From Thermosynechococcaceae cyanobacterium Okahandja (lineage in GTDB: Bacteria > Cyanobacteriota > Cyanobacteriia > Thermosynechococcales > Thermosynechococcaceae): a stretch of 64,000 bases of DNA. The notes under the pieces were generated by a model, which was not told where the DNA came from, searched no databases, and saw only the letters and a program-made list of their open reading frames with translations. The translations under genes were made by a program, and so were the position numbers. The DNA is taken from the NCBI GenBank assembly GCA_041530395.1, contig CP136945.1:1736001-1800000 (forward strand), in the 5' to 3' direction. This document shows, piece by piece, positions 22,846-30,132 of this stretch (its first letter is position 1; the number at the start of each line of letters is the position of its first letter).

Positions 22846-23109
22846 ATGACATCTAACGCTTCAGAGGCATCGAGCAAAAAAATTGCAGCGGGAATTTGCG
22901 GGATTTTACTGGGTGCCCTCGGCATTCATAAGTTTGTCCTTGGCTACTCCAGCGAAGGACTGATCATGCTGTTGGTCAGCATTCTAACCTGTGGCGTTGT
23001 CGCGCCGGTCATGGGCATCATTGGCCTCATTGAGGGCATCATTTACCTCACCAAAACTGACGAGGAGTTCTATAACACCTATATGGTTGGCAAAAAAGGC
23101 TGGTTCTAG
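22846..23109 (+). CDS. TM2-domain membrane protein, 87 aa
   Basis: Residues 12-70 form a TM2 domain: AAGICGILLGALGIHKFVLG, a short loop, then a second helix pair with GVVAPVMGIIGLIEGIIYL. TM2 proteins are small inner-membrane proteins of unknown role. Its last 25 codons are also present 1.3 kb downstream in a duplicated segment (24369-24573). Confidence 0.8.
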   Translation: MTSNASEASSKKIAAGICGILLGALGIHKFVLGYSSEGLIMLLVSILTCGVVAPVMGIIGLIEGIIYLTKTDEEFYNTYMVGKKGWF

Positions 23110-23238
23110 CCTGTACCATCGGCCTAGTAACTGGATCCACGATAGCGGCGGCGGCGCTGGCCGTCATCATCACTTTTGGGCAGGGAGCCAGTGTCGGCGA
23201 CAGTGCCAACTCCGCGCTACTGTTGCGGGCTTTAGGGG
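23034..23238. repeat. direct repeat, copy 1 (about 205 bp)
   Basis: Matches 24369-24573 at a constant offset of 1335 bp with a dozen or so differences. It covers the 3' end of the TM2 gene and the 3' end (on the minus strand) of the receiver-domain gene at 24459. Copy 1 keeps the intact TM2 gene; its receiver-gene part is a duplicate tail only. Confidence 0.85.
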
Positions 23239-23477: not shown

Positions 23478-23720
23478 ATGGTTACAACGCTTAATAAACC
23501 ATCTTCTCTAATCCATGAGATCCGACTTGAAAAAGTTGGCCACTGGAATTTATTCAAATTTAGTGAGTCTCTTCAAGGGCGAATGGAAACCCTTTTAGAA
23601 AAGAAGAAGGCTGACCAACTCGCTCCTGATGAACTTGCTGAATTAGATGCAATTGGAGAGTTAGATCGTATTTTCACCCATATCAATGCGATGCTTGCTG
23701 CGCAAGATGCCAATCAGTGA
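23478..23720 (+). CDS. small protein paired with HNH nuclease, 80 aa
   Basis: 80 residues, mostly helical, with a Leu/Lys/Glu-rich middle (LLEKKKADQLAPDELAELD). A weak GAGG lies ahead of the ATG at 23478. It overlaps the HNH gene by 14 bp. Proteins like this are frequently seen just before HNH genes in cyanobacteria, so the two probably work as a pair, perhaps inhibitor and nuclease. Function unknown. Confidence 0.65.
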   Translation: MVTTLNKPSSLIHEIRLEKVGHWNLFKFSESLQGRMETLLEKKKADQLAPDELAELDAIGELDRIFTHINAMLAAQDANQ

Positions 23721-24159
23721 TGAACTCAAGCAAGTGATTCGAGAGCGTGCCCAATATATCTGCGAGTACTGCCATTCACCGGAGCGACTGAGCGCCAGTC
23801 GATTTACCGTTGATCATGTCATTCCGAAATCTCTGGGCGGTTCTGACGAAATTGATAATCTTGCACTTGCCTGTCGTCGCTGTAATGAGAGGCGATACAA
23901 CTTTGTAGCTGGTATTGATCCAGAGACTCAGGAAATTGTTCCTATTTTTAATCCTCGTAAACAGCGGTGGGATGAGCATTTTGTTTGGCTAAGTCAAGGT
24001 CTTGTCATAGCAGGAACTACGCCCATTGGTCGTGCAACTTGCCTGCGTCTCGATTTGAATGATACCCGTTATCCAGAGAACGATTCTATTCGAGAAACGA
24101 GGCGGCTCTGGATACAAACCGGATTGCACCCTCCAGAAGGTGATCCGTGCAAAGCTTGA
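23707..24159 (+). CDS. HNH endonuclease
   Basis: 150 residues from the ATG at 23707 (PISDELKQVIRERAQ). The HNH motif is complete: CEYCH, then VDHVIPKSLGGSDEIDNL, then CRRCNERR. The two CxxC pairs bind structural zinc and the His/Asn residues form the metal-dependent nuclease site. The C-terminal half (FVWLSQGLVIAGTTPIGRAT) is typical of a group of stand-alone cyanobacterial HNH proteins, possibly defence or mobile enzymes. It lies inside the segment bounded by the 205-bp direct repeats. Confidence 0.8.
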   Translation: MPISDELKQVIRERAQYICEYCHSPERLSASRFTVDHVIPKSLGGSDEIDNLALACRRCNERRYNFVAGIDPETQEIVPIFNPRKQRWDEHFVWLSQGLVIAGTTPIGRATCLRLDLNDTRYPENDSIRETRRLWIQTGLHPPEGDPCKA

Positions 24160-24368: not shown

Positions 24369-24573
24369 GGGCATCATTTACCTCACCAAAACTGACGAGG
24401 AGTTCTATAACACCTATATGGTTGGCAAGAAAGGCTGGTTCTAACCTGTACCATCGGCCTAGTAACTGGATCCGCGATAGCGGCGGCGGCGCTGGCCGTC
24501 ATCATCACTTTTGGGCAGGGAGCCCGTGTCGGCAACAGTGCCAACACCACGGTACTGTTGTGGGCTTTGAGGG
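24369..24573. repeat. direct repeat, copy 2 (about 205 bp)
   Basis: Second copy of 23034-23238. Here the TM2 part is only a 3' remnant, while the receiver-domain gene is intact. The two copies bracket about 1.13 kb of foreign DNA, so the original order was TM2 gene then receiver gene, tail to tail. Confidence 0.85.
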
Positions 24574-25094
24574 CTACTGGGGGGAGGAGGAGCCACGGCA
24601 GGAGGATCGGCGGGCGGGGCAGGTTCTGGAGTCGTCTCCCTTGAAAGGGCACTAAGGCTGGCCATTAAAGCGTCCTGCTGAATAGGCAGGGCATCAAGCA
24701 ACTCTAAAATGCGGGTTAGGTGAGAGACCGCCGTGGCAATGAGGGTGGACTCTTGAATAGCCGGCAGCAGATCCGTTGCCCCTAGACGCAATGCCCAGCG
24801 CCGCTCGGCACTACTAATCTGGCGGTCTTGACCAGAGGTAATAACAATCGGCAAGCCCGGAAAACGGGACTGGGCAACCTGACAAAAGCGGTAGGGGTTG
24901 GTTACCGTCATCCCCAGATCTAACAGCAGTAAATTGGGTAGGGTTAACCCTGCCGTTACCATTCGATCCAACACTTCGAGGAGGTCGCAATCTAGCTCTT
25001 CCCAGATCACGGTCACGTTTTGACTGCTGAGCATACTGTGCCAAATTTCCCCCTGACGTTGAATCGCTTGCGTCATGAGTAGGGTGGGTTTCAT
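24459..25094 (-). CDS. receiver-domain protein with Pro-rich tail and YRG motifs
   Basis: 211 residues. The first 125 resemble a CheY receiver: LLLLDLGMTVTNPYRF carries the phospho-acceptor Asp and PIVITSGQDR follows. The usual Lys near GATDLLPA is absent, so it may be atypical. Then comes a Pro-rich linker and a tail with QQYRG and RRRRYRGSSY, a short motif known from DUF4278-like cyanobacterial proteins. The ATG at 25094 has GGAGG 8 bp upstream. An IS-like element ends about 7 bp before that ribosome binding site, so native promoter sequences have been displaced. Confidence 0.65.
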   Translation of the reverse strand: MKPTLLMTQAIQRQGEIWHSMLSSQNVTVIWEELDCDLLEVLDRMVTAGLTLPNLLLLDLGMTVTNPYRFCQVAQSRFPGLPIVITSGQDRQISSAERRWALRLGATDLLPAIQESTLIATAVSHLTRILELLDALPIQQDALMASLSALSRETTPEPAPPADPPAVAPPPPSSPQSPQQYRGVGTVADTGSLPKSDDDGQRRRRYRGSSY

Positions 25095-26248
25095 CAAAAA
25101 GTCCTCCGAGAAACCCCCACCTCGCGCAGCAGGTGGGGGAGGGATAAGAGCGGTGGTTGAGTGGGGTACGATGCCCCCGAAACCACCAAATTTGTACTGC
25201 GCGAAATCAAAGAAACTTTGGAAGCGGTAAATTGCCCCAACCGCTTCCAGTTGAAATCGCTGACAGAAATCTGCTTTTGAGTATCACCGCTCACCCAACC
25301 GACATAAACCCGACTCGCCATTTCAGCGCGAACAATGTCACCCTTCCGAACTCCATGCCGTGTAGTGGTGCCGCCATATTTGCGGCGTACACCCCCTTTT
25401 ACTGGAACCATTAAGTGCAACTGCCTGCGCGAAATCGGAGGTCTGCGAATTACCCTGAAAACCGATGGCGTTAGCTCAACTGAACCTGTCCACCTATGAC
25501 CGTGAGTATTGGCAGTGTAAAACGATTCGTATCGGACGAACTCAGAACACGCTAGAGCCAATCCATCAACGGCATGACTTTCAGGTGTTTGCACTGACTT
25601 ATCTTTCGACTTGGCCAACCCTAACTGCTTTCTGAGGCTAGCGGTTTCGTACCCAAACCGCGTCTCAACCGGAGCTAGTTTTGCCAACCAGCCTAACATG
25701 ACTTGTTGACCCACCATTACAGGAGAAAAGGATTTTGACCCCTCTGCCTTTACGTACTCATAGATAATCTTGCTCACTGGAAAGATTTTGCAAATCTCAC
25801 TCACGACCCTGAATTCAAGTTGTCGATTGGCTCGAATACTAGGCGGTAGTTTGTTCTGCCGACGGTTATTAAACCGTTTCTGTCTGTGGGCGCGTTTGGC
25901 GTAGGCAACCTTGCGGTTGATTCTCCTCCCGCGTCTCCCACGTCGCATCATCCGACGTTGTTCCATTCGGCCTTTGACCGTTTGGAATGGCAACACTAGG
26001 TGAGCCAAAAATAAAGTTGCCTTGGGTGATTGCACTCCAATACCGGAATACAGCTTTCCGGGGTCGATGCCCACCGCAATCGGTTGGGTTTCTTCCCCAG
26101 AAGGTTGCTGAACCAGTTGGACGTAGAACACGCCCAAATCTGACCATTTGCCCACTGCCAGCCCATCTCGAATCCAGCGTCTTGCGCGACTCGCCTTGGT
26201 GGGCATCAACGGTTTTCCGTCAGGTGATAGAACTGGAACTCGCAACAT
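25094..26248 (-). CDS. isrB: IsrB-type RuvC nuclease (RRXRR protein, IscB relative without HNH)
   Basis: 384 residues. Order of parts: PLMP motif (DGKPLMPTKASRARR, residues 10-25); RuvC-I with GIDPGK near residue 60; arginine-rich bridge helix MMRRGRRGRRINRK near 100; RuvC-II IIYEYVKAEG near 160; RuvC-III ESHAVDGLALAC near 225; then a C-terminal domain with RKGDIVRAEMASRVYVGWVSG. No HNH domain lies between RuvC-II and III, which separates IsrB from IscB. All RuvC acidic residues and the RuvC-III His are present. IsrB proteins are RNA-guided DNA nickases. The last 20 codons read through the element end into host DNA. Confidence 0.8.
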   Translation of the reverse strand: MLRVPVLSPDGKPLMPTKASRARRWIRDGLAVGKWSDLGVFYVQLVQQPSGEETQPIAVGIDPGKLYSGIGVQSPKATLFLAHLVLPFQTVKGRMEQRRMMRRGRRGRRINRKVAYAKRAHRQKRFNNRRQNKLPPSIRANRQLEFRVVSEICKIFPVSKIIYEYVKAEGSKSFSPVMVGQQVMLGWLAKLAPVETRFGYETASLRKQLGLAKSKDKSVQTPESHAVDGLALACSEFVRYESFYTANTHGHRWTGSVELTPSVFRVIRRPPISRRQLHLMVPVKGGVRRKYGGTTTRHGVRKGDIVRAEMASRVYVGWVSGDTQKQISVSDFNWKRLGQFTASKVSLISRSTNLVVSGASYPTQPPLLSLPHLLREVGVSRRTF

Positions 26249-26460
26249 GTGATAAACCTCTTTCGAGTTTGAGTCTCTTCGTCCACCGAATCAAACATGT
26301 CTTGGCTTTCCCAACGCCTCTAACCAGGAGGCTTGCAGATAATCCGATCTAGAGAAGCAACCGGAAGTGCGTAGCATGATTCGGCTCAATGGACTATTCA
26401 AGGTTTCAGTGGGTCTGGCTCCCCACTCTCCCACCTCGCGTTAGCAGGTGGGAATTCTTG
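25112..26460 (-). mobile_element. IS200/IS605-like element carrying isrB, no transposase
   Basis: Both ends carry the same hairpin: CCCCCACCTCGCGCAGCAGG at 25114 and CCCACCTCGCGTTAGCAGG at 26430, with arms CCCACCT/AGGTGGG. This matches the subterminal hairpins of IS200/IS605 elements. No TnpA (Y1) transposase is present, so movement would depend on one in trans. Exact borders are uncertain by a few bases because no target duplication is made by this family. Confidence 0.7.
26249..26460 (-). ncRNA. candidate omega RNA region upstream of isrB
   Basis: The 212 bp between the isrB start and the element end are non-coding. IscB and IsrB proteins use a guide RNA made from this position, with the guide copied from DNA just outside the element end (here beyond 26460) and the scaffold inside. 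The terminal hairpin at 26429-26453 and the spacing agree; transcription is not shown by sequence alone. Confidence 0.45.
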
Positions 26461-26596
26461 AAGGGCTTAAAATCCTTCAAATTTTTGCTGCAAAGGATAC
26501 AGAAACCATCTATAAGTTAATCTCTTGTTTAACATACTTTAACAACAATGCCAGCTTTAGAGACGCTCAGATGTTCATAGGGAACACTCTGACCCT

Positions 26597-27505
26597 TTAG
26601 GGGACGGGAACCGTATTCAGTAACTCGGCCACAAAGGCCAAGTTAGAGCGGCCAGCGGTGGTAATGAGGCGATGGCCAAGGACGTGGGGTGCAAGCCGTT
26701 TCACATCATCGGGCACCACATAATCGCGATCGCTCAGGAAGGCTAGGGCTTGGGCGGTGCGTTGGAGCATGACGGTGCCGCGGGGGCTAACGCCAAGGGT
26801 GATGCGATCGCTCTCGCGGGTACTGCGGACAAGGCTGAGGATGTACTTTTGCACCACCGGTTCCACGTGTACCTGTAGCACCTGTTGTCGCAACTGCTCG
26901 ATGTCACTGAGACTCAAACAAGGGCTAAGCTGTTTCAGGTCTAGCCCCCCCTGTAGCCGCTGTAGCATTTGCAGTTCTTCGTCTTCGCTGGGGTATCCTA
27001 AGCTGAGGCAGAGGGCAAAGCGATCAAGCTGCGCCTCGGGCAGCGGAAAGGTGCCTTGATACTCCACCGGGTTTTGGGTAGCAATCACAAAAAAGGGCTG
27101 GGGCAGGGCATAGGTTACGCCATCAATGGTGACTTGGTACTCTTCCATGACCTCCAGCAGGGCGGACTGGGTGCGTGGTGTAGCGCGATTAATTTCGTCC
27201 GCCAGCAGAATGTTACAAAAGACCGGCCCTGGCCGGAACTCAAATTCAGCGGTTTTGGGGTTCCAAATATTCGTGCCCGATAAATCTGTTGGCAGCAGAT
27301 CGGGGGTGGCTTGAATGCGCTGAAAGGAACCGCCAAGGGAGCGGGCTAAGGCTTTGGCCAAGAGGGTTTTACCCACTCCGGGCACATCTTCTAGCAGCAC
27401 GTGGCCACCAGCTAATAGACCCACCAGCACCAGTTCGAGGGCTGTTTCTTTGCCCACGATCACTTGACCAAGGTTACTCACCAATCGCTGTAGGGGATCA
27501 CGCAT
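26597..27505 (-). CDS. MoxR-family AAA+ ATPase
   Basis: 302 residues from the ATG at 27505. Walker A EDVPGVGKTLLAKALA, Walker B ILLADEINRATPRTQ, sensor 1 VIATQNPVEYQGTFPLPEAQ and the arginine finger region LDRFAL are all present. MoxR ATPases are chaperones that mature protein complexes, often with DUF58 and VWA proteins; a DUF58 gene occurs at 54167, not adjacent. It overlaps ribF by 8 bp and is co-transcribed with it. Confidence 0.85.
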   Translation of the reverse strand: MRDPLQRLVSNLGQVIVGKETALELVLVGLLAGGHVLLEDVPGVGKTLLAKALARSLGGSFQRIQATPDLLPTDLSGTNIWNPKTAEFEFRPGPVFCNILLADEINRATPRTQSALLEVMEEYQVTIDGVTYALPQPFFVIATQNPVEYQGTFPLPEAQLDRFALCLSLGYPSEDEELQMLQRLQGGLDLKQLSPCLSLSDIEQLRQQVLQVHVEPVVQKYILSLVRSTRESDRITLGVSPRGTVMLQRTAQALAFLSDRDYVVPDDVKRLAPHVLGHRLITTAGRSNLAFVAELLNTVPVP

Positions 27506-28403: not shown

Positions 28404-28572
28404 GGGTCAACAGCAGAGTAGATAACACAGGAAACATTCTGACACATTTGCCCAGATTGCGGCAGCTTCGGGGCGGCTCATTATTTTTCTTTTATTGTTA
28501 CCACAGAAAAAATTCTCTTGAATCCTCAGAAAAGCGTGTGCTACAGTAAGCAAAAATTTATTTAAATTTGCC

Positions 28573-28690
28573 TAATCTGAAGCATCACAGCTCAGAGCGG
28601 AGGATCCAATGAAAAGGGGCGAATTCTCACCGGAGAAAGGATACCACTGAATCCTAGCCCGTCAGCTAACTTCGTCGGCATTCAGTTGGA
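28573..28690 (+). promoter_or_regulatory. c-di-AMP riboswitch (ydaO/yuaA type)
   Basis: Conserved parts in order: GCGGAGGATCCAAT, GGGGCGAATTCTC, and the signature CCCGTCAGCTAACTTCG close to the 3' end. Closing stem ATCTGAA / TTCAGTT. It lies about 90 bp ahead of an ion-transporter gene, the usual target class. Binding of c-di-AMP normally turns such genes off. Confidence 0.8.
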
Positions 28691-28782
28691 GACTGGCTGT
28701 TGTCTATCACTGGTCAGTGTTCTATGTTTCGGTTTCGCTGCGTTGACCGGAGTCCCTACCCCACAATTTTTTAGGACCTTAG

Positions 28783-30132
28783 ATGCTCATCCAATACTGG
28801 CAGCCCCTTGTGGCAGGTCTGATCTTTCTCGGTGTGATTGTCCTGATCATGACCGAGTGGATCAACATCACGATTGCAGCCTTTCTCGGCGCTATTCTCC
28901 TCGTTTTTCTGAATATCATGACCCTTGCTGAGGCCATTAGCTACATTGGCCGCAGTCACGGCACCCTTGCCCTCTTTTTTGGCGTGATGGTGCTTGTGCG
29001 AGCGTTTGAACCAACAAAGATTTTCGACTATATTGCCACTCAAATGGTCATTTTGGCACGGGGACAAGGGAAGCGATTACTTTTGGGCATTGTTGCCCTT
29101 ACCGTCCCCATCTGTGCCGTGTTGCCAAATGCGACGACCGTCATGCTGCTGGCACCCCTATTGCCCCCCATGGCTGCGGAGGTGGGGGTAGATTTTGTAC
29201 CCCTGATTATTTTGATGGTCATTGTCTCTAACAGTGCAGGCTTGCTAACCCTAGTGGGGGATCCAGCCACCTACATTGTCGGGGATGCTATCAACCTGAG
29301 TTTTGCCGATTATCTGCTGCGCCTGAGTCTGGCCGGGGTGTTAGCGATTTCCGTCATTGTCTTTTGCCTGCCGATCTTGTTTCGACGGATTTGGCGCAAA
29401 GAACTCAAAAGCCTTGATCACTTGCCCCATCCTCAAATTAACCATCCCCGCACCTTGGCCGTTGGCTCCGTCATTATCCTGTTTGTGCTTGTGTTCTTCG
29501 TTATTGGGGATGGCACCCTAGTGAAAGTCTCGCCGCCTGCTGTCGCCTTGATGGGAGCAGCCTTGGCGCTGCTCCTTGCCCACCAAAGCAAAATTGATAC
29601 CGTCACCCACATTTTGCGAGATGTGGACTGGGGCACCCTGATTTTTTTTATGAGCGTCTTTGTGCTGATTGGCGGTCTCGAAAAAACCGGGATCATTGGC
29701 CAGCTTTCGCAACTCCTAGCCGTTGCCGTCGGCAAGCATATCTTTGTTGGCTCTCTGTTGCTGTTGTTTGCAATCGGTATTCTCTCCAGTGTTATCCCCA
29801 ACATTCCCTTGGTCGTGGCAATGGTGCCATTACTCAAAAAGTACGTTATCCAAGTTGGCCTAGCCGGTAGCGAAATTCTTCACCCCGGCTATGGGGGCGA
29901 TATTCCCGCTACAGTTCTGCCGTTGTTTTATGCCATGATGCTGGGTGCCACGTTAGGGGGAAATGCCACCCTAGTGGGTGCCTCGGCTAATATTGTGGGG
30001 GCAGGCGTTGCCGAACTCCATGGTCGGCAAATCAGCTTTAAGACATTTTTGCGCTATGGCGTTCCGATTACAGCGCTGCAACTAGGGGTCGCGGCTCTGT
30101 TTCTTACCCTGCGATTTTTAATTTGGCGCTAA
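28783..30132 (+). CDS. SLC13/ArsB/NhaD-type ion transporter
   Basis: 449 residues with eleven to twelve membrane segments. Helix-hairpin signatures VLPNATTVMLLAP, SNSAGLLTLVGDPATYIVG and the matching repeat IPNIPLVVAMVPLL with GATLGGNATLVGASANIV are those of the ion-transporter superfamily (ArsB, CitM, NhaD). GDPAT and GGNATLVG are ion-site loops. Substrate could be Na+/H+, an anion or a dicarboxylate. Control by a c-di-AMP riboswitch suggests a role in ionic or osmotic balance. Its end overlaps the convergent gene by 15 bp. Confidence 0.8.
   Translation: MLIQYWQPLVAGLIFLGVIVLIMTEWINITIAAFLGAILLVFLNIMTLAEAISYIGRSHGTLALFFGVMVLVRAFEPTKIFDYIATQMVILARGQGKRLLLGIVALTVPICAVLPNATTVMLLAPLLPPMAAEVGVDFVPLIILMVIVSNSAGLLTLVGDPATYIVGDAINLSFADYLLRLSLAGVLAISVIVFCLPILFRRIWRKELKSLDHLPHPQINHPRTLAVGSVIILFVLVFFVIGDGTLVKVSPPAVALMGAALALLLAHQSKIDTVTHILRDVDWGTLIFFMSVFVLIGGLEKTGIIGQLSQLLAVAVGKHIFVGSLLLLFAIGILSSVIPNIPLVVAMVPLLKKYVIQVGLAGSEILHPGYGGDIPATVLPLFYAMMLGATLGGNATLVGASANIVGAGVAELHGRQISFKTFLRYGVPITALQLGVAALFLTLRFLIWR

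Follow-up and report, generated by a model that had tools for sequence, protein, structure and literature searches.

IscB, and through it Cas9, is regarded as probably descended from IsrB. IsrB homologues have been shown to nick the non-target strand under RNA guidance, and the TAMs known for IsrB include ATGA and TTGA (PMC9581776). DtIsrB from Desulfovirgula thermocuniculi (8dmb; PMC9581776) has a PLMP-RuvC-BH-RuvC-RuvC-TI layout without HNH, RxGQ residues that read an NTGA TAM, and an omega RNA with pseudoknots just upstream of the gene, and the cyanobacterial element described here resembles it in each of these respects. CwIsrB from Crocosphaera watsonii (PMC9581776) belongs to the same cyanobacterial clade as our protein. 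HEARO/IscB systems (RF02033; PMC9755519) likewise place the guide 5'-terminally in an RNA that is encoded ahead of the nuclease, and rarely have an adjacent TnpA, but differ from our element in their HNH domain. TnpB of IS200/IS605 is also a transposon-encoded RNA-guided nuclease that has been proposed to hold its element in place, although its guide lies on the 3' side of the element, its RNA is unrelated and its target motif is a different one.

The stretch analysed here (the window) comprises 64,000 nucleotides of the genome of Thermosynechococcaceae cyanobacterium Okahandja and contains an element with a full-length isrB gene (Table 1). A first-pass annotation of this DNA had recognised the gene as isrB, and on its sequence the 384-aa protein is indeed an added member of the IsrB family: Pfam RRXRR matches it in a profile search (E 6.5e-49), and its best solved match is DtIsrB (8dmb; E 9e-54, residues 2-355). 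All expected parts are found, namely PLMP (residues 13-17), RuvC-I with GIDPG (D62), an arginine stretch in the bridge helix, RuvC-II (E164), RuvC-III with HAVD (H225, D228) and a C-terminal TAM domain with R336/Q339, which align with R323/Q326 of DtIsrB. The active-site residues D62, E164, H225 and D228, which the annotation had described as kept, are, like R336/Q339, invariant or nearly so in an alignment of 15 homologues. Its claim that there is no HNH insertion also holds, as inspection of the ORF revealed no HNH motif and a spacing of only ~60 residues between RuvC-II and RuvC-III; the NCBIfam IscB profile, scoring below its cut-off, covers only the N-terminal half (residues 6-169), as expected for a protein without HNH. 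An AlphaFold model (mean pLDDT 53 on 15 sequences) was too poor for a fold search. Unlike in DtIsrB, the tail of the 384-aa protein is read from the right end of the element, which encodes the final ~28 residues, and a host base completes the stop codon. By homology to DtIsrB and CwIsrB only, the protein is predicted to nick the non-target strand in an RNA-guided manner.

Table 1. Features of the IsrB element and its host junction (positions in the window)
Feature	Position	Strand	Details and basis
Whole IsrB element, 1368 bp	25095..26462	(-)	four own-genome copies and the empty site in G001
Left-end hairpin	26430..26452	(-)	seen in the sequence; kept across copies
Right-end hairpin	25114..25139	(-)	seen in the sequence; kept across copies
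isrB ORF	25094-26248	(-)	384 aa, open, full length
Omega RNA scaffold (putative)	26249..26461	(-)	covariation in relatives
Host-derived guide (putative), 20 nt, ATTTGAAGGATTTTAAGCCC	26463..26482	(-)	upstream host flank, different in every copy
GGAGG, Shine-Dalgarno-like, in the right end	25103..25107	(-)	8 nt upstream of the host ATG
ATGA, TAM and host-gene start codon, overlapping the isrB stop TGA (25096-25094)	25091..25094	(-)	junction and empty site
Host gene, 211 aa	24459..25094	(-)	weak receiver-domain similarity (NCBIfam, 6.6e-5)

The ends of the element were determined by comparison of copies. Four copies in the same genome share the sequence from TTCAAGAA(T/C)TCCC to ...CTCGGAGG..TTTTT(G/C)G, followed by ATGAA only, and their flanks beyond this motif are unrelated. 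In the window, the element joins the host at ...AAGCCC on one side and at ATGAAACCC on the other, and a sister species (G001) possesses the corresponding empty site, in which AAGGATTTTGAGATC is directly continued by ATGAAACCC, as opposed to AAGGATTTTAAGCCC, element and ATGAAACCC in the occupied site. Together, the four copies and this empty site place the borders at 25095-26462 without target duplication, so that the annotated span of 25094-26460 captured the element with slightly shifted borders; the matched end hairpins of the annotation were located, and the ends are common to all four copies. A second and cleaner case is the cphA (cyanophycin synthetase) site of another cyanobacterial genus, empty in two species (G106, G364) and occupied in two others (G104, G319), where the empty and occupied sites have identical bases up to ...CATCAGCTATATC|ATGAAAATTC, with the junction preceding ATG. 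For two further copies of the own genome no empty site was recovered, the relatives being too diverged at the DNA level, and sites at the DAHP-synthase and fabF genes were dropped as clean empty-site proof, their left ends being truncated or unclear.

The distribution of the element is patchy: IsrB is present in two of the 11 genomes of the genus and absent from nine of the ten other than our own. Copies in Arthrospira sp. PCC 9108 (L038, L051), a distant cyanobacterium, are 85% identical to that of the window, and this identity, together with the absence from nine of ten congeneric genomes, makes horizontal transfer likely.

The annotation had further proposed an omega RNA upstream of the gene, with a guide copied from flanking host DNA. 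The ~213 nt between the left end and isrB (~300 nt in DtIsrB; PMC9581776) are alignable across 30 cyanobacterial loci and fold into eight helices with 43 pairs, 95.5% of the cells being paired. Two-sided changes occur in 303 cells compared to 85 expected from shuffling, and pairing falls to 46-47% if the partners are slid by one base. The fold includes a pairing of TCAAG at the 5' end with CTTGA further 3' and, in addition, a 5-bp pseudoknot; the tested IsrB RNAs also contain pseudoknots (PMC9581776). This covariation in relatives shows that a conserved structured RNA lies upstream of isrB. A further difference from HEARO/IscB is that the Rfam HEARO model (RF02033) matches neither the window region (E up to 5) nor any of 20 loci at gathering score, and it was therefore discarded as direct support for the omega RNA. 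From the sequence of the 5' flank, which differs from copy to copy at junctions fixed by the empty sites, we infer that the RNA is transcribed with this flank as its guide, its assumed length of 20 nt being that of the heteroduplex in DtIsrB (PMC9581776).

A point absent from the first-pass annotation is the position of the element directly 5' of the start codon of a host gene. The TAM in place is thus an ATGA at a gene start, a point of difference from DtIsrB. The host gene occurs in nine of the 11 genomes of the genus and has no Pfam match. Among 76 non-redundant junctions, assigned partly by pattern and partly by hand, 66 are ATGA, five TTGA, four ATGG and one GTGA; HEARO has been described as followed by ATGA/GTGA. 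An ORF of at least 90 codons opens at 36 of the 66 ATGA junctions (55%), compared to 179 of 1091 ATGA motifs that lie in no gene body, taken from five host genomes (16%; 10-23% per genome), which corresponds to an odds ratio of 6.1; within the window this background is 24/105. Some of these junction ORFs are true gene starts, as profile matches begin at ORF residues 1-13 in IlvH (acetolactate synthase small subunit), CphA, MetH, DapB, CobO (cobalamin adenosyltransferase), DAHP synthase, FabF and a MtnX-like phosphatase. At the remaining 30 ATGA junctions a long ORF begins within 100 nt downstream in only six cases, which locates the excess at offset zero. The survey relied on a simple gene caller, hand-assisted junctions and related elements, and survivorship may account for part of the excess. 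A C. watsonii locus (L041) with an IsrB 65-66% identical to ours, which may not be the tested CwIsrB itself, differs in its diverged ends and RNA stem lengths but also precedes an ATGA, which opens an ORF of 179 codons. No description of start-codon docking was found in the open-access literature, a search whose reach does not include the original HEARO, ISC and OMEGA papers.

The junction motif is tied to recognition by the protein. The residue aligned to Q326 of DtIsrB is glutamine in all 67 readable cases whose motif ends in A (ATGA, TTGA or GTGA) and arginine in all four ATGG cases, a correspondence that the Q326R switch of DtIsrB, which admits TTGG/ATGG (PMC9581776), would predict. The ATGG junctions probably form one clade and thus represent few independent events.

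The junction may also bear on how the host gene is translated. In 11 of the 76 junctions the isrB stop and the start of the host gene overlap, as TGATG in the window clade (five loci) and elsewhere with the TGA of the host ATGA as stop (six loci). The Shine-Dalgarno-like motif is present in the window clade, but overall in only 29/76 junctions, and is no richer at docked sites (13/40 vs 12/30); a general supply of ribosome sites by the right end is thus ruled out, and GGAGG is retained as a trait of the clade only. A scan of 24900-26800 on both strands, weak in itself, yielded no sigma-70-like promoter.

Several other features lie near the element. Some 1 kb past the 3' end of the HNH-less isrB there is a stand-alone HNH endonuclease ORF (23686-24159, plus strand). 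Among NCBIfam models it scores best, though below cut-off (47 bits), with the HNH part of IscB, and it is probably an ordinary HNH gene. This ORF is bracketed by a 205-nt direct repeat (23034-23238 and 24369-24573; 95% identical) in which a small TM2-like gene ends. A c-di-AMP riboswitch (Rfam RF00379, 77.8 bits; 28559-28695, plus strand) precedes an ORF at 28783 that encodes a membrane transporter of 449 aa.

The designation of the element as IS605-like stands for its hairpin ends and its mode of insertion, on the 3' side of a short constant motif and without target duplication, which are IS200/IS605 traits, but not for a transposase. No TnpA is encoded inside the element, the own genome yielded none whose ends match, and tblastn with two TnpA query sequences detected none near isrB loci. 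The TnpA/TnpB elements delimited in the own genome insert after TTAAC and were ruled out as mobiliser. At five other sites of this genome (G000 C1:27645, 374167, 1006229, 1613318 and 2343901; L012-L015 and L017) there are elements whose end hairpins closely resemble the left end of IsrB (CCAACCTGCTAACGCGAGGTTGG), the joint being TTGAAC or TTCAAG, unlike that of IsrB; at least one of them (L014) codes, as judged by eye, for a TnpB-like protein. The likeness of the hairpins hints at a shared transposase.

We regard it as probable that the locus is a single-protein IsrB element with an omega RNA, mobilised in trans and placed immediately before an ATGA start codon. An IS200/IS605-type TnpA would mobilise it, and the omega RNA would carry the host 5' flank as guide. 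Because the guide consists of DNA that flanks the element on its 5' side, no internal promoter can include it, by logic rather than by measurement. Landing between a 5' UTR and its start codon would provide a correctly oriented promoter upstream, from which guide, omega RNA, isrB and host gene would be transcribed as one message, and the stop/start overlap and, in the window clade, the right-end GGAGG would maintain translation of the host gene. After excision, IsrB would nick the re-joined empty site (flank plus ATGA), and the nick would favour repair from a copy still holding the element, which would thus be restored, as published OMEGA work suggests.

Alternatively, this could be an ordinary IsrB whose TnpA targets TCAT/ATGA, the start-codon pattern representing the survivors after insertions into gene bodies were lost, with no adaptive docking. 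Although ATGA and TTGA were already known as TAMs (PMC9581776) and ~45% of the ATGA junctions lie away from start codons, we consider this unlikely: the null with gene bodies excluded gives 10-23% instead of 55%, and splitting the ribosome site from the start of dapB, fabF or metH would be expected to do no less harm than an insertion elsewhere between genes.

Decay is a similarly doubtful reading, in which a once mobile element can no longer move because its genome has no cognate TnpA any more. It would agree with the missing matching TnpA, with a frameshift in the C-terminal part of two of the four own copies and with a 57-bp sequence at C1:2167031 (L011) in which the left end is fused to the right end, just ahead of the start codon of a gene for a TPR protein; this remnant retains GGAGG 7 nt upstream of that codon, which aligns with the start of the G001 homologue. 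The window copy, however, is undiminished in length and intact in active-site residues, RNA fold and ends, suggesting that it was active recently or is under selection. That IsrB and its omega RNA have been co-opted to control the downstream gene is very improbable, in spite of the tight linkage and the stop/start overlap, since each copy has a different host gene, the RuvC residues are kept and only 2/11 genomes of the genus carry the element.

Beyond the mobile IsrB element itself, we give about even chances to the wider proposal that cyanobacterial IsrBs are start-codon-docking elements, in which the TAM or target ATG(A/G) serves as start codon. The former 5' UTR would then be transcribed from the host promoter as guide, in one RNA with the omega RNA and isrB, while translation of the host gene would continue thanks to stop/start overlap and ribosome sites borne by the element's end. 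Sequence alone has yielded natural guide/TAM pairs by the dozen and the correspondence of TAM and reading residue. If true, the proposal would explain how a guide is expressed by an element whose guide sits outside its own DNA. Recurrent landing at start codons would, moreover, account naturally for the NTGA TAM and would show a gentle strategy of insertion ahead of housekeeping genes.
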